A stretch of 64,000 bases of DNA from a virus. The position numbers and the translations under genes were made by a program. A model generated the notes under the pieces. That model saw only the letters and a list, made by a program, of their open reading frames with translations, did no database searches and was not told where the DNA came from. Below, one piece after another: positions 14,941 through 29,221 of the stretch. Where the stretch lies: positions 1-64,000 of IMG/VR virus record IMGVR_UViG_3300042482_001026; one strand, written 5' to 3'. The stretch's first letter is position 1. Each line of letters starts with the position of its first letter.

Positions 14941-15063
14941 CTACTCTTTAATGTTCATAGTCACAAACACACCCAGAAAAAAGCATAACGTACACGACAC
15001 CACATCAATAGAGTGTCTTATCAAATCGTGCAGATTTTGGTTAAAGTCGAAATGCCCAAACAT
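14941..15063 (-). CDS. 40-aa single-span membrane protein coupled to the tubulin gene
   Basis: Too short for a length filter, but its ATG (15063-15061) overlaps the tubulin stop as TGATG, the same coupling used elsewhere in this genome. The sequence starts MFGHFDFNQNLHDLIRHS, an amphipathic or polar N-terminus of about 18 residues, followed by a hydrophobic segment VVSCTLCFFLGVFVTM (about 21-36) and a short charged end NIKE. It would sit in the inner membrane with one span. Stop-start overlap means roughly matched expression with the tubulin, so it could be its membrane anchor or regulator. No homolog is known to me. Confidence 0.6.
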   Translation of the reverse strand: MFGHFDFNQNLHDLIRHSIDVVSCTLCFFLGVFVTMNIKE

Positions 15064-16304
15064 CAGTCAACGCCCAAAAAGGAAGCAATGTTACTGGCGG
15101 CATTAGCGGCCGTAACACTACCAACGCGGGCAAGCTTAGATAGGGTTTCACGAGGTGGCTCCAGATCACCAATCAAGGTGTAACACTGGATACCTGAATC
15201 ATCGTCACCTGTGTAGATGCCTCTGTGCAGAACAGTCGCAGGCTTCTCAGGATACCCACTACCTAGAAGCTGATCTAATTGCTCAAATCCCGACATGAGG
15301 TAATCGTCAGAAAACGTTTGCTGTACTTCGGGACTGGTAGCAAAGACACAGACACCCTTCTTACCTCGCCGCAGATCACAGGCTGACAAGACATTGTTGG
15401 CCAGTTCATCTCTAATGACGCTGCGCACATCAGCAGGCGACGATACCTTCTTAGGATCAATGTATGCCGAACCCATGACAAGGATGCCTGAGTCGAGAAG
15501 CTGGAAGAACTCACTCTGATCAAACGTTACTAAGCCCTTACGGTTGGCTGCGTAGTAATTAAAGACGTTAAACAATTCCGCCACTACAGAGTTAGCCTTG
15601 GGATAAAGATCGGCCATGGAAGACGAGTAAATGTTTTTGACTCTAGCATTGTCAATCACGATCAAAGGACTGACCTTAGCTGCCATCAGTTCAGAAAATG
15701 CTTGAATGGCATTACGGCACGTCAATTGTCCTTCGCCCGGTTGTGGCAATGAAACGATGGCGCCTACACGGGTATCTTCTCCCGTGGTCTGTGCCATGTG
15801 CTTGCGAGCTAATGCTACGAGGCTGGAGCTCATGCCTCCACCTGTACCGCCACCAAGACCAGCACAGATCAAAATGCAATCTAAAGGACCAGAACCCCAC
15901 GCCCTAAACAACAAGTCTCTTACATCTGCATCTCGATTAGCCAGAACTTGCTTGGCCAACTTCATGTCCTTGGATGCTCCGCCCACGTCCAAAGACAGTT
16001 TGGGCATCTCGGCATCTAGGCCATCAAAGTCGTTTACCGTGGTATTGAGAACACCTACACGTCGATATCCTAAGGCCCAGAACGCTTGCGCAATACGACC
16101 ACCCGCCTGACCACATCCAAGTACACCAATCCGAGCTGCGACGGGGTAAGACAAATCATCTTCAATTGGAGCTACTTGTTTAGTCGCCTGCTTGGATTGC
16201 GCCACAGATGTTGTCAGCGCAATGTTGCCCGGACGAGACGGCATAGGGGGACCAGATGGCTTCAATTGTTCTGCGGCATTCAAGGACTTGGAAAAATCAG
16301 ACAT
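15063..16304 (-). CDS. FtsZ/tubulin-family GTPase
   Basis: A 413-aa protein. Residues 1-55 are a disordered, Pro/Ser-rich leader. The GTPase domain has the T1 loop VLGCGQAGGRIA (61-72), the tubulin signature GLGGGTGGG (149-157) as the T4 loop, and SLPQPGEG near 185-192. The T7 region reads VTFDQSEFFQLLDSG (259-273), so D262 and E265 are candidates for the GTP-hydrolysing acidic residues; this differs from the usual N.D..D. The C-terminal domain follows and ends without the classic FtsZ-binding peptide. It probably forms filaments in the infected cell. It lies far from the replication genes and among virion genes, unlike plasmid tubZ loci. Confidence 0.85.
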   Translation of the reverse strand: MSDFSKSLNAAEQLKPSGPPMPSRPGNIALTTSVAQSKQATKQVAPIEDDLSYPVAARIGVLGCGQAGGRIAQAFWALGYRRVGVLNTTVNDFDGLDAEMPKLSLDVGGASKDMKLAKQVLANRDADVRDLLFRAWGSGPLDCILICAGLGGGTGGGMSSSLVALARKHMAQTTGEDTRVGAIVSLPQPGEGQLTCRNAIQAFSELMAAKVSPLIVIDNARVKNIYSSSMADLYPKANSVVAELFNVFNYYAANRKGLVTFDQSEFFQLLDSGILVMGSAYIDPKKVSSPADVRSVIRDELANNVLSACDLRRGKKGVCVFATSPEVQQTFSDDYLMSGFEQLDQLLGSGYPEKPATVLHRGIYTGDDDSGIQCYTLIGDLEPPRETLSKLARVGSVTAANAASNIASFLGVD

Positions 16305-23666: not shown

Positions 23667-23753
23667 GGCCACCTCGTGGAAATAGGGGTTTGTGCAAGTG
23701 TAGGAAAGGAAAGGATTAGTTACAAGTTCGATTAACAAAAGTCTCTGATAGCT

Positions 23754-23798
23754 AAAAAAAAGACCAAGCCACCCGGGAACGCCCCGGACAGCTTGGTC
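23754..23798 (-). terminator. intrinsic terminator after the 78-aa gene
   Basis: On the minus strand GACCAAGC pairs with GCTTGGTC (23791-23798 with 23762-23769), enclosing a second stem CCGGG/CCCGG, followed directly by eight T residues (complement of 23754-23761). It lies 6 nt after the stop of the 23804 gene. Confidence 0.9.
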
Positions 23799-23803
23799 AA
23801 ATT

Positions 23804-24040
23804 TTATTTGGACGCCGTTACGGCGTCCAGCGTCCGAAGGACGAGCTTTGAATATTGCCCAAACCTGTTCCGCCATACCACTTCACCGGGGCCAAAGGCC
23901 CCAAGGCATTCGGCAAAAACTTCGGCCGCTTTGGTGGCTTCAGCGGGGCTGGCCGTAGCCAGCTCGCTGATTCCAAGACCGGTGACCATTTTGGTCACGC
24001 GGTCCGCCGCCAAAACCGACGATACGAATTCAGTTTGCAT
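23804..24040 (-). CDS. 78-aa unknown protein in a GC-rich, hairpin-dense unit
   Basis: I start it at the ATG at 24040 (MQTEFVSSVLAADRVTKM), which has GGAGG 8 nt upstream. It is helical and Ala/Glu-rich (ASPAEATKAAEVFAECLGAF) with no motif. Unusual at the DNA level: GC-rich relative to its neighbours, and full of short perfect stem-loops (for example 23810-23828, 23888-23902, 23948-23963, 23982-23998). It has its own promoter-like element at 24097 and an intrinsic terminator at 23754, so it is a one-gene transcription unit. Function unknown; see the findings. Confidence 0.6.
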   Translation of the reverse strand: MQTEFVSSVLAADRVTKMVTGLGISELATASPAEATKAAEVFAECLGAFGPGEVVWRNRFGQYSKLVLRTLDAVTASK

Positions 24041-24096
24041 CGTGCGTCCTCCACCAAACAACGGCTTACGCCGGCACAGCTAAACCGCTGTACATG

Positions 24097-24107
24097 TTAT
24101 ATGACGC
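24097..24107 (-). promoter_or_regulatory. promoter-like element GCGTCATATAA
   Basis: The minus-strand sequence GCGTCATATAA lies 57 nt before the start of the 23804 gene and is nearly repeated (GCGTCATATTA) 62 nt before the start of the 24428 gene. Between it and the start are two small hairpins (24062-24073 and 24076-24091) and the GGAGG site. Because each gene has its own terminator, each needs its own promoter, and this element is the only shared sequence. Whether a host or phage polymerase uses it is unknown. Confidence 0.4.
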
Positions 24108-24122
24108 AATTTTGCCTTGAAT

Positions 24123-24350
24123 TTAGGCAGGCTTGAAAGGTAGCCAATCGTCTGTATTCGAGTTCCAGCGCAGTGCTTCTTTGGTGGCAGTTAACACGTG
24201 ATTGACCGTACAGTAATTAACGGCACCGCATTTACATGACTTTGAAAAACAGTCATAAGTATTTTCATGCTCCTTACAGTCAGGAGCAATAACAACTTTC
24301 ATACAAACGGTACAACGGATAACCACGGTATATTCCTCGTGTCCGCACAT
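24123..24350 (-). CDS. 75-aa cysteine-rich protein
   Basis: I start it at the ATG at 24350 because the longer frame to 24428 runs through a terminator. The protein has nine cysteines: MCGHEEYTVVIRCTVCMKVV, then CKEHENTYDCFSKSCKCGAVNYC. The spacing CxxC, CxH and CxC suggests one or two zinc sites. GC content is low, unlike the two genes on each side. It has no obvious promoter between the terminator at 24382 and its start, so it may depend on read-through. Function unknown. Confidence 0.5.
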   Translation of the reverse strand: MCGHEEYTVVIRCTVCMKVVIAPDCKEHENTYDCFSKSCKCGAVNYCTVNHVLTATKEALRWNSNTDDWLPFKPA

Positions 24351-24381
24351 TCTAAGCTCAACAATAATTTCTGCAATAGTT

Positions 24382-24421
24382 AAAAAAAAGACCACGCCCA
24401 GCCCTAAGGCCAGACGTGGTC
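24382..24421 (-). terminator. intrinsic terminator after the 24428 gene
   Basis: On the minus strand GACCACG pairs with CGTGGTC (24415-24421 with 24390-24396), with a further GGCC/GGCT-type inner stem, and is followed by eight T residues (24382-24389). It begins 7 nt after the stop of the 24428 gene. It is built like the terminator at 23754 and also opens with GACCA. Confidence 0.9.
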
Positions 24422-24427
24422 TCTGCA

Positions 24428-25189
24428 TTACGCCAACATGTCTGGCGGGAACGCCAAACTAATTTTTAGCCCGTGTGGGTATTCCACCCACTCTTTGCTG
24501 TCCCACCTTTCTCCGGTGGACAACGGAGTTAGGACGAAGGCTTGCGCCTCCTCCAAGTAGTTATCCACCTGCCCCTCTCCGAGGAGGTGTGTAACCTCGT
24601 AGGCTACACTACCATCCGACATCGCTGTCGGAATTGGAGACTTGATGTCCCGGAGCGCCGCAAAGGCGCCCACAAACGGATTGAGCAGGACTGAGTCCTG
24701 CTGCAAGATCAGATCGATCTTGCGCAATTGGCCGCGCACAACAAGGGCCATGTCGGCCCATGACCTGCGCCCAGCGGCGCAAGCCGCCGTGGTCATGGCA
24801 ACATCCACCGCCACGGCAGCGGTGAACGACGCAGCGTCGTCCGCCGCGCACTGCGCGGCTGGCATCCCCCTCAAAGGGAAAACGCTTTCGGTGGCATTGA
24901 TGCCACCAACAACACCTGCCCCGAAGGGCAAGATCCGCGCCACGGTGGCGCTGGGAGTGCAATCTCCCAACGCCCCGTCAAGGTAATTGGGCGGTACGTC
25001 TTGTACCACCAGCCATTGCCCTTTTAGCACAAAGTGCCGATCCTCAATGACCGTCACCTCCTCTGCCAAAAGAGCAACTCCAACATTCCCTCGAAACTTG
25101 GTAGCCACACCTACTCGGTTTTTCGGCATCGTGGCATTGTGCCACTTTGCGAGAGCTAGGATGTTGTCGATATTGCTAGCAGTAGTCAT
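24428..25189 (-). CDS. 253-aa unknown protein in a GC-rich, hairpin-saturated unit
   Basis: Started at the ATG at 25189 (MTTASNIDNILALAKW), which has TGGAGG 6 nt upstream, the same site as in the 23804 gene. The protein has a beta-rich first third (GVALLAEEVTVIED, FVLKGQWLVVQDV), an Ala-rich middle with four cysteines spread through it (AAQCAADDAASFTAAVAVDV), and a mixed C-terminal third ending HGLKISLAFPPDMLA. No motif recognised. GC content is roughly 58-65% in places versus about 43-48% nearby. The mRNA would fold into a chain of short hairpins, including one at 25216-25236 before the start. It is a one-gene unit with promoter-like element and terminator, likely strongly expressed. Confidence 0.6.
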   Translation of the reverse strand: MTTASNIDNILALAKWHNATMPKNRVGVATKFRGNVGVALLAEEVTVIEDRHFVLKGQWLVVQDVPPNYLDGALGDCTPSATVARILPFGAGVVGGINATESVFPLRGMPAAQCAADDAASFTAAVAVDVAMTTAACAAGRRSWADMALVVRGQLRKIDLILQQDSVLLNPFVGAFAALRDIKSPIPTAMSDGSVAYEVTHLLGEGQVDNYLEEAQAFVLTPLSTGERWDSKEWVEYPHGLKISLAFPPDMLA

Positions 25190-25250
25190 GAGAAACCTCC
25201 ACGCAATAACTGACACGCTATCCGAAATGGATAGCGCGACGCATTGCAGA

Positions 25251-25261
25251 TAATATGACGC
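25251..25261 (-). promoter_or_regulatory. promoter-like element GCGTCATATTA
   Basis: Matches the element at 24097-24107 in 10 of 11 positions and lies 62 nt before the 24428 start. It is followed by the perfect 8-bp hairpin CGCTATCC/GGATAGCG at 25216-25236 in the transcript leader. Confidence 0.4.
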
Positions 25262-25277
25262 GTTTAGGGTCTGTTAT

Positions 25278-25910
25278 TTAGTCGTCGTAATCGTCGTCAT
25301 TACGCGGTATTGGCGCTTGTCTGACTTGTTTCTTTTTGTCTTCTTTGAACGTGACACTCGTTATCATTTCGACTGGACCAAAATAATAGTCTGCCTGCAT
25401 CTTGACCACAGGCAATAATGTCTCAGTATCGACTTCTGTAACCGCACCATCTTTTACCGCAGGAACTGTCAATGCCGTTGCACCGTCAGGCAGATACACA
25501 TACCTCTGCGGCCCCTTAGTGACAGGCAGAGGTACGCCATAAAAAGGAAATACATAAACGTCTTTACCTTCTGCCGAACTTAAATACTTGGCCAAGGCTA
25601 CAGACGTGCGTACGTTCTTAATCTTAGGAGCCTCGCCGTCTGCGCATTCGACAATCCAATAACCTATCGACGTGAAATTAGGAACGACGTCACCCACAGG
25701 CATTTCGGCTGCAACTTTTTCTTGAATGACGGTTCGTGTAAATTCGCTTAATTTGGCAAAGCTGTTTTTAAATAACTGTGCGTCATCACATACAACTGTT
25801 TTATGCATAGCCAATTCACGCGATACAGGACTACGCCGTGTTTCTTCTACCGTCTCTTTGCCGACGGGACTTAATTTGTCAAACCATGTGTTCCACGCAG
25901 CCAGTGCCAT
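25278..25910 (-). CDS. unknown protein with acidic tail (210 aa)
   Basis: A 210-aa protein without recognised domain. Residues 75-170 look beta-rich (SIGYWIVECADGEAP, VYVFPFYGVPLPVT, RYVYLPDGATALTV), the end is a basic-then-acidic tail (KKKQVRQAPIPRNDDDYDD). The start makes TAATG with the upstream stop and has only a weak ribosome-binding site. It heads a run of four genes (25278-28160) of 210-298 aa that are tightly linked; virion or assembly roles are likely from position, but nothing proves it. Confidence 0.55.
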   Translation of the reverse strand: MALAAWNTWFDKLSPVGKETVEETRRSPVSRELAMHKTVVCDDAQLFKNSFAKLSEFTRTVIQEKVAAEMPVGDVVPNFTSIGYWIVECADGEAPKIKNVRTSVALAKYLSSAEGKDVYVFPFYGVPLPVTKGPQRYVYLPDGATALTVPAVKDGAVTEVDTETLLPVVKMQADYYFGPVEMITSVTFKEDKKKQVRQAPIPRNDDDYDD

Positions 25911-28169: not shown

Positions 28170-28406
28170 CTAAGAAAAATGCCGAGCCAGTACGAGACGC
28201 TTGCCGCACGCAGGCATCAACAAACGTTTCTTGTAACCATTGCCTACATTAACGCCACGGTAGTAAATCACAGCTTGAATTAACTTACCAACAAACTTGT
28301 ACGTCGTCTTGTAACTACTCTTGCCACGTCCAACTTGTATCAAGAATTCAGTCTCATCAGTGTACGCAATATTCTTACCGTCAAGCTCGGATATGTATGT
28401 CTGCAT
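28170..28406 (-). CDS. small protein, paralog of 28416-28658
   Basis: A 78-aa protein. FLIQVGRGKSSYKTTYKFVG and KKRLLMPACGKRLVLARHF align with FLLQVGSGSDAYSV and KKRLVMPYGTNRHILARTY of the next gene, in the same order and spacing, so the two arose by duplication. Beta-rich with a basic end. AAGGGA precedes the ATG. Function unknown. Confidence 0.6.
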   Translation of the reverse strand: MQTYISELDGKNIAYTDETEFLIQVGRGKSSYKTTYKFVGKLIQAVIYYRGVNVGNGYKKRLLMPACGKRLVLARHFS

Positions 28407-28415
28407 AGTCGTCCC

Positions 28416-28658
28416 TTAAACGTTGTAAGTACGTGCCAGTATGTGACGATTGGTTCCGTAAGGCATCACTAATCGTTTCTTATCGCCCTTCTCAAGTTGA
28501 ATGCTGTCGTAACATTCAAGAGCCAGCCTTAAATTTCCTCTTATCGACTTTGTGACGGAGTAGGCATCGCTGCCCGAACCTACTTGCAGTAAGAACAATG
28601 TGGCGCTGTGCCAATTGATCTGTCTTCCCTTGTAAATAATCGATCGTAACTTTGTCAT
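28416..28658 (-). CDS. small protein, paralog of 28170-28406
   Basis: An 80-aa protein; see the neighbour for the alignment. I start it at the ATG at 28658, which forms TGATG with the RuvC stop; a GTG sits three bases earlier. The shared core is F-L-(I/L)-Q-V-G-x-G followed by KKRL(L/V)MP and LAR. A small beta-barrel or OB-like fold would fit, without proof. Confidence 0.6.
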   Translation of the reverse strand: MTKLRSIIYKGRQINWHSATLFLLQVGSGSDAYSVTKSIRGNLRLALECYDSIQLEKGDKKRLVMPYGTNRHILARTYNV

Positions 28659-29221
28659 CACGCACCATATACCTTTCTGCGTAAATACTCCGCCAGCAAC
28701 AAACCCTCCGCGCGATTGTGATCAGCCTTACGGGTAAGTTTGACGTTGGGGAACATGGCTGCGGCTTTCATGCGGCTGAATTCTTTATCCTTGCCCTGAA
28801 GCCCCATGTTCTTCTTCCATGAAATTGGAGCTACGACTTCGTGGTAATAATCTAGCGCCGTAAAGAACAAAGACCACATACCAAAACCAACACCTACACG
28901 AAAACCTGTGTAGGCATTGGCTCCTTTACCTTTGATCTGAACCTGCGCCTCTTCCACGCAAACCCTGATCCGTTTACGCAAAGGATTGAAAGGCTTAAAC
29001 AATTCGACGATAGCTCTGTGATCAAACAGAGTTTTGGTTTTGGAAGAACCATCTAGTTTCTTGCCAGAGCGTTCCGTTTTGTATGTGGGTATGTCCACCA
29101 CACACGCAAAGTTGCCACACAGAAATCCAATGGCGCCTTCCGATCCGGGATCAATTCCCACAAAGATGAGTTCTTCGCTATTGGCGACACTTTTCAGAAA
29201 CTCATCCATGTGTTGACTCAC
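28658..29221 (-). CDS. ruvC: RuvC-like Holliday junction resolvase
   Basis: A 187-aa RNase H-fold protein. FVGIDPGSEGAIGF has the first catalytic Asp (D24), IRVCVEEAQ has the acidic residue after strand 4 (E89/E90), and KADHNRAEGLLLAEYL (about 166-180) is the C-terminal motif with D167 and E172. These are the four-acid pattern of RuvC-type resolvases. It would cut four-way junctions left by recombination-dependent replication before packaging. The start is GTG at 29221 with ATG at 29209 as an alternative. It is transcribed in the middle block, downstream of the recombination genes. Confidence 0.85.
   Translation of the reverse strand: MSQHMDEFLKSVANSEELIFVGIDPGSEGAIGFLCGNFACVVDIPTYKTERSGKKLDGSSKTKTLFDHRAIVELFKPFNPLRKRIRVCVEEAQVQIKGKGANAYTGFRVGVGFGMWSLFFTALDYYHEVVAPISWKKNMGLQGKDKEFSRMKAAAMFPNVKLTRKADHNRAEGLLLAEYLRRKVYGA

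Follow-up and report, generated by a model that had tools for sequence, protein, structure and literature searches.

Two genes of the IMG/VR virus record IMGVR_UViG_3300042482_001026 (66.5 kb, of which the first 64,000 nucleotides form the window analysed here) are packed with short perfect hairpins beyond what their codons and base composition would produce. These genes, called here A and B, appear to be members of a regulon that comprises some nine monocistronic units in a phage of ~185 kb. Sequence statistics show that the unit transcripts are structured all along, from leader hairpin to terminator and in the coding sequence as well, by means of synonymous codon choice. Selection would act on the RNA for being folded and not for any single fold and the benefit, which is less certain, would be a long-lived message. 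Selection for generally structured, nuclease-resistant, long-lived monocistronic mRNAs is given a probability of about 0.5. The same even odds are given to a promoter-defined regulon of natural “superfolder” messages, in which any gene would be recoded into a chain of local hairpins, structuredness being selected and not a structure.

Stems were counted as perfect pairings of at least 6 bp, with loops of 3-7 nt for genes A and B, and folding energy in the window was taken as the mean per 120 nt. Two controls were applied: a codon permutation, in which synonymous codons are permuted within the gene so that protein, codon usage and composition are kept, and a stricter shuffle that preserves both codons and dinucleotides. 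The initial annotation had counted at least sixteen stems of 6-8 bp in the two genes; exactly 16 are present, four in gene A and 12 in gene B, but one of them is 9 bp long. Codon permutation leads to an expectation of 0.6 stems in gene A and 2.2 in gene B, and the stricter shuffle to 0.9 and 3.1, respectively. The mean folding energies are -55.5 kcal/mol for gene A and -53.9 kcal/mol for gene B, with z-scores of -4.2 and -9.2 under codon permutation and of -3.0 and -7.4 when dinucleotides are also preserved. Among the 63 other genes of the window, whose folding energy is half that of A and B, the codon-permutation z ranges from +2.3 to -4.6 and none pairs such energies with such stem counts. 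The over-structure of A and B survives both types of shuffle. The gene located between them (24123-24428), thought from the outset to be free of hairpin excess, indeed has a single stem and a z of -1.4. The two units, both on the minus strand, are laid out as follows (MFE, minimum free energy; dN/dS, ratio of nonsynonymous to synonymous substitution rates).

23748..24126, minus strand: unit A, promoter to terminator, one gene; MFE of -0.48 kcal/mol per nt
24098..24126, minus strand: promoter of unit A, CTAAAT-N13-GCGTCATATA, then ACATG
24062..24091, minus strand: leader hairpins of unit A, ACAGCGGTTTAGCTGT, then CGGCGTAAGCCG (sequence and fold)
24048..24053, minus strand: TGGAGG ribosome-binding site of gene A (sequence)
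23804..24040, minus strand: gene A, 78 aa, no family, four perfect stems of 6-9 bp; dN/dS of 0.07-0.23
23754..23798, minus strand: intrinsic terminator of unit A with T8, the conserved AGCTAT being next (23748-23753)
24376..25281, minus strand: unit B, promoter to terminator, one gene; MFE of -0.52 kcal/mol per nt
25252..25281, minus strand: promoter of unit B, CTAAAT-N14-GCGTCATATT (motif scan)
25203..25248, minus strand: leader hairpin of unit B, with the core CGCTATCC-ATTTC-GGATAGCG at 25216-25236 (stem count and fold)
25196..25201, minus strand: TGGAGG ribosome-binding site of gene B (sequence)
24428..25189, minus strand: gene B, 253 aa, no family, 12 perfect stems of 6-8 bp; dN/dS of 0.08-0.10
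24382..24421, minus strand: intrinsic terminator of unit B with T8, then AACTAT (24376-24381)

Both genes start with ATG (at 24040 for gene A and 25189 for gene B). The promoter-like element, leader hairpin, TGGAGG site and T8 intrinsic terminator that had been ascribed to each unit are all present in both. The two units first described are real, with extents of about 23748-24126 and 24376-25281, but they are members of a class that counts about nine units per genome.

This class was characterized in relatives of the phage. The close relatives, at 92-93% DNA identity, include a 186-kb DNA phage contig, G006, which encodes a DNA polymerase and a terminase. The near-identical sequence found at both ends of this contig suggests a circularly permuted genome of ~185 kb. 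The end overlap (L018:1-600 and L027:5444-6054) contains a few differences, located in an apparent ribonucleotide reductase gene, that suggest assembly from mixed strains. A promoter scan of the viral collection led to more distant members, G008 (74 kb) and G010, and to a far relative, G009.

Motif scans of G006 reveal nine single-gene units, in each of which a small open reading frame (ORF) is preceded by the promoter, a leader hairpin at the 5' end and a ribosome site. The shared promoter is CTAAAT-N13/14-GCGTCATAT, also written CTAAAT-N13/14-G[C/T]GTCAT; the promoter of unit A is common to these nine units, to nine of G008 and to two of G010. The last element of eight of the nine G006 units is a terminator, its T tract continuing as AGCTAT or AACTAT, and the ninth, U7, has a long hairpin at its end. 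The sequence A[G/A]CTAT is conserved after the T tract of 21 terminators from the window, G006, G008 and G010, as well as in G009 and in L111 (G015), and may be part of a termination or processing signal.

Permutation z-scores range from -1.5 to -10.7 in 22 ORFs that belong to units of the window, of G006, of G008 or of G010, and stems of at least 8 bp are frequent in them where ~0.1 are expected. Eighteen unit ORFs contain 102 stems of at least 6 bp versus 18.6 expected, the longest reaching 16 bp; the phase of these stems relative to codons displays a weak bias only. In a scan of 211 G006 ORFs, some of which are wrong-frame calls within a unit, those with the highest excess energy lie within promoter units with few exceptions; ORFs at 79-83 kb are also structured, but they lack the motif and are weaker than the units. 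The share of bases in stems is ~20-28% inside units versus 3% genome-wide, and it falls off at the promoter and at the terminator. Every strong unit folds into a leader hairpin at its 5' end. In U6 (G006 184331-184639), only ~35 aa are encoded and the RNA consists mostly of non-coding hairpins, including a perfect 16-bp stem; hairpins extend to non-coding parts of units. A repeat-family search indicates that the only sequences common to different units are the promoter, the leader and the terminator. Mobile palindromic elements of the Rickettsia type were considered and excluded, the coding hairpins of different units having no shared sequence.

Outside this group, G012, G015 and G021, which have a looser promoter pattern, are GC-rich, and a hairpin class is not clearly visible in the 20-kb pieces of them that were read. 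G015 has T-AGCTAT terminators in common with the units. Vibrio phage D69 and Salmonella phage Arash, related through the portal protein only (24.7-29%), have neither the promoter nor comparable hairpin units.

The dN/dS values of A, B, U5 and U7 lie in the range 0.06-0.23; that of U1 is 0.46. The proteins are under purifying selection, which indicates that the unit RNAs are messages. Neither A nor B belongs to a family in Pfam or PHROGs (the best PHROG matches of A have an E-value of 0.045 or worse), and a search of annotated phages did not reveal gene B. The AlphaFold model of A has a predicted local distance difference test score (pLDDT) of 75 and no PDB match at E<=0.001; that of B (pLDDT 41) is uninformative. 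Judged by eye, U5 would encode a small membrane protein and the second ORF of U3 a lipoprotein. Where gene B is 92-94% identical in DNA between phages, gene A reaches 73-81%; it is unusually fast or recombined.

The hairpins of the coding sequences mostly turn over in position while their density is kept. Gene B of the window and gene B of G008 (44% protein identity) have only 7 of 180 mappable base pairs in common (about 4%), and both have z-scores of about -8 or below. Double substitutions in stems overall kept pairing in 29 cases and broke it in 39, which is the chance level. Compensation is limited to unit U1, where 85% of the pairs are kept at 78% protein identity and five of six double changes are compensatory, and to the shared leader hairpin, where 5 of 11 pairs display two-sided compensatory changes across units. 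Furthermore, fourfold-degenerate sites located in stems change less than those located elsewhere between close relatives (odds ratio of 0.25, comparisons within the trio of relatives not being independent); the sites of gene A go in the same direction as those of gene B and do not have a diverged 5' part as a confounding factor. The search for paired substitutions in homologs that had been proposed thus gives a partly negative answer for one fixed structure in the coding stems, but being structured is retained. The idea that the mRNA itself is selected to be structured is strengthened by the single promoter and terminator class, but not in favour of one particular fold.

Several comparisons lean modestly to RNA. 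Interior mismatches in stems are G-U in 20 cases and A-C in four, against a ratio of 1.29:1 expected from composition (p=0.007), and one-sided changes are G-U in 76 cases and A-C in 47. Nine tetraloops of unit stems belong to the UNCG or GNRA classes versus one for the mirror classes. Loops of 4-5 nt are favoured (18 unit ORFs, 102 stems), as they also are in DNA hairpins. The confinement of stems between promoter and terminator points the same way. It is considered very probable that selection acts at the RNA level.

Why the message should be folded is less certain. Stability is the first choice because little single strand would be exposed to RNase E-like enzymes: with a hairpin at the 5' end, that of the terminator at the 3' end and little left unpaired in between, the transcript would be shielded against RNase E-type and exonucleolytic attack. 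Such shielding would be useful where a phage polymerase makes the message uncoupled from ribosomes. A plausible source of the unit transcripts is the multisubunit RNA polymerase that the phage encodes. An RNA polymerase beta-type domain (PF00562) is found in G006, G009, G012, G015 and G021, and a beta'-type domain (PF00623) in G006. In Salmonella phage Arash, whose portal protein is ~25% identical to that of this phage, the beta/beta' RNA polymerase subunits rank with the most abundant proteins of the virion (PMC10585845). Together, these data make transcription by a phage polymerase likely in this group, and we infer that this enzyme may read the GCGTCATAT promoter.

Several observations weigh against selection for structured, long-lived messages. 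The antisense strand folds just as over-stably as the sense strand, so the bulk folding signal is unable to separate RNA from DNA. Allowing for base composition leaves a weak excess of G-U among the one-sided changes, and compensation in A and B is at the chance level. In gene B, mosaic divergence confounds the fourfold-site result, as the 5' part is both poor in stems and diverged. The ribosome site is paired to a similar degree as in other genes, and neither it nor the start codon stands particularly open, which speaks neither for nor against a translational purpose. Finally, the units of G009 have the same promoter yet are only mildly structured; the strong hairpin trait thus belongs to one lineage.

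Structured RNA could also be selected for a role other than stability, such as ribosome pacing or delayed expression, evasion of RNA-cutting or RNA-sensing defences, avoidance of R-loops or RNA pairing, or compaction for transport. The evidence for RNA-level selection applies equally to these roles, and slow or late synthesis would be sensible for the several products that resemble small membrane proteins or lipoproteins (U5, second ORF of U3). The one point against them, and not a specific one, is that a 5' leader hairpin combined with a 3' hairpin is the classic stability arrangement; taken together, these roles are considered a less likely alternative.

It is unlikely that the hairpins are DNA-level palindromes that are merely transcribed, whether they result from template switching at quasi-palindromes or have a cruciform or single-strand DNA function. 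Their mostly perfect Watson-Crick stems with short loops, the equal over-structure of sense and antisense and the rapid turnover of hairpin positions would all fit such an origin. Against it, the stems stop at the promoter and terminator limits, G-U exceeds A-C, RNA tetraloops exceed their mirrors and the hairpins of different units are not copies of each other. Moreover, one-sided changes are far more numerous than two-sided ones, unlike what template-switch correction would give.

A role as specific functional RNAs (recognised, scaffolded or packaged) that incidentally carry ORFs is best illustrated by U1, which combines conserved pairs and compensatory changes with the least constrained protein. 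It is highly improbable: for the coding hairpins, recognition as a specific RNA, put forward initially, is not supported, given the near absence of pairs shared between A or B and their distant homologs and double substitutions at the chance level, dN/dS is low outside U1, and no match at gathering threshold is found in the window with Rfam, including large phage non-coding RNAs such as ROOL and GOLLD. Chance or base composition can be considered refuted, since A and B are at 57-58% GC in a phage genome at ~46% but permutations keeping composition and codons still give z-scores down to -12 and U1, U7, U4 and gene A of G008 are at only 49-52%.

Genome-scale ordered RNA structure (GORS) is found in positive-strand RNA viruses and RNA phages such as MS2. 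Like GORS, the coding RNA of the units, within their limits only, is pervasively paired beyond codon-preserving controls; here, however, the RNAs are mRNAs of a double-stranded DNA phage, restricted to about nine promoter-defined units, and the remaining genome is near background. Hairpins that stabilise mRNA at its 5' and 3' ends are known in bacteria, as in the ompA leader, and in phages, as in work on T4 mRNA decay (PMC3014915). Such mRNAs resemble the units by their 5'-end hairpin and 3' hairpin terminator, but here the coding sequence is folded end to end and unrelated small genes belong to one promoter class. In designed “superfolder” mRNAs (PMC7457604), synonymous choice also raises base pairing of the coding sequence, whereas the present case is natural, is made of many short local hairpins and involves bacterial and not therapeutic translation. 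The jumbo phages AR9 and phiKZ (PMC7598289) share a phage-encoded beta/beta' polymerase and phage-specific promoters, but neither the GCGTCATAT promoter class nor hairpinned messages were found described. The open-access literature, which excludes most subscription journals, deals with structured coding RNA in viral mRNAs, with general trends in how coding sequences fold and with engineered structured mRNAs; a class of hairpinned genes defined by its promoter was not found there for a DNA phage.

Some other genes of these phages deserve mention. A minus-strand ORF of the window (15063-16304) corresponds to a gene of G006 in which a tubulin/FtsZ GTPase domain (Pfam PF00091) is present, and a further match is located in G012; this domain is known from phages with a tubulin spindle. 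In a comparison with the nucleus-forming phages (Chimalliviridae), which are marked by the chimallin shell protein, this domain is all that was observed. The window also encodes, on the minus strand, a Holliday junction resolvase (28658-29221; PHROG 1770, E=6e-22) and two adjacent ORFs of 78 and 81 aa (28170-28661), apparently tandem paralogs, that both have a KKRL-MP C-terminal pattern. One protein of G006 (L018-L027) has a caspase-type peptidase domain (PF00656, E=2.5e-24), which is unusual for a phage.

In these units, the joint evolution of coding sequence, promoter class and RNA structure can be followed in nature and in several replicates. As unrelated genes are placed under one promoter, the purpose of coding-region structure, be it mRNA lifetime, translation speed or defence evasion, becomes directly testable. 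The units would be natural counterparts to engineered stabilised mRNAs, and they may have a bearing on how uncoupled phage transcription preserves its messages.
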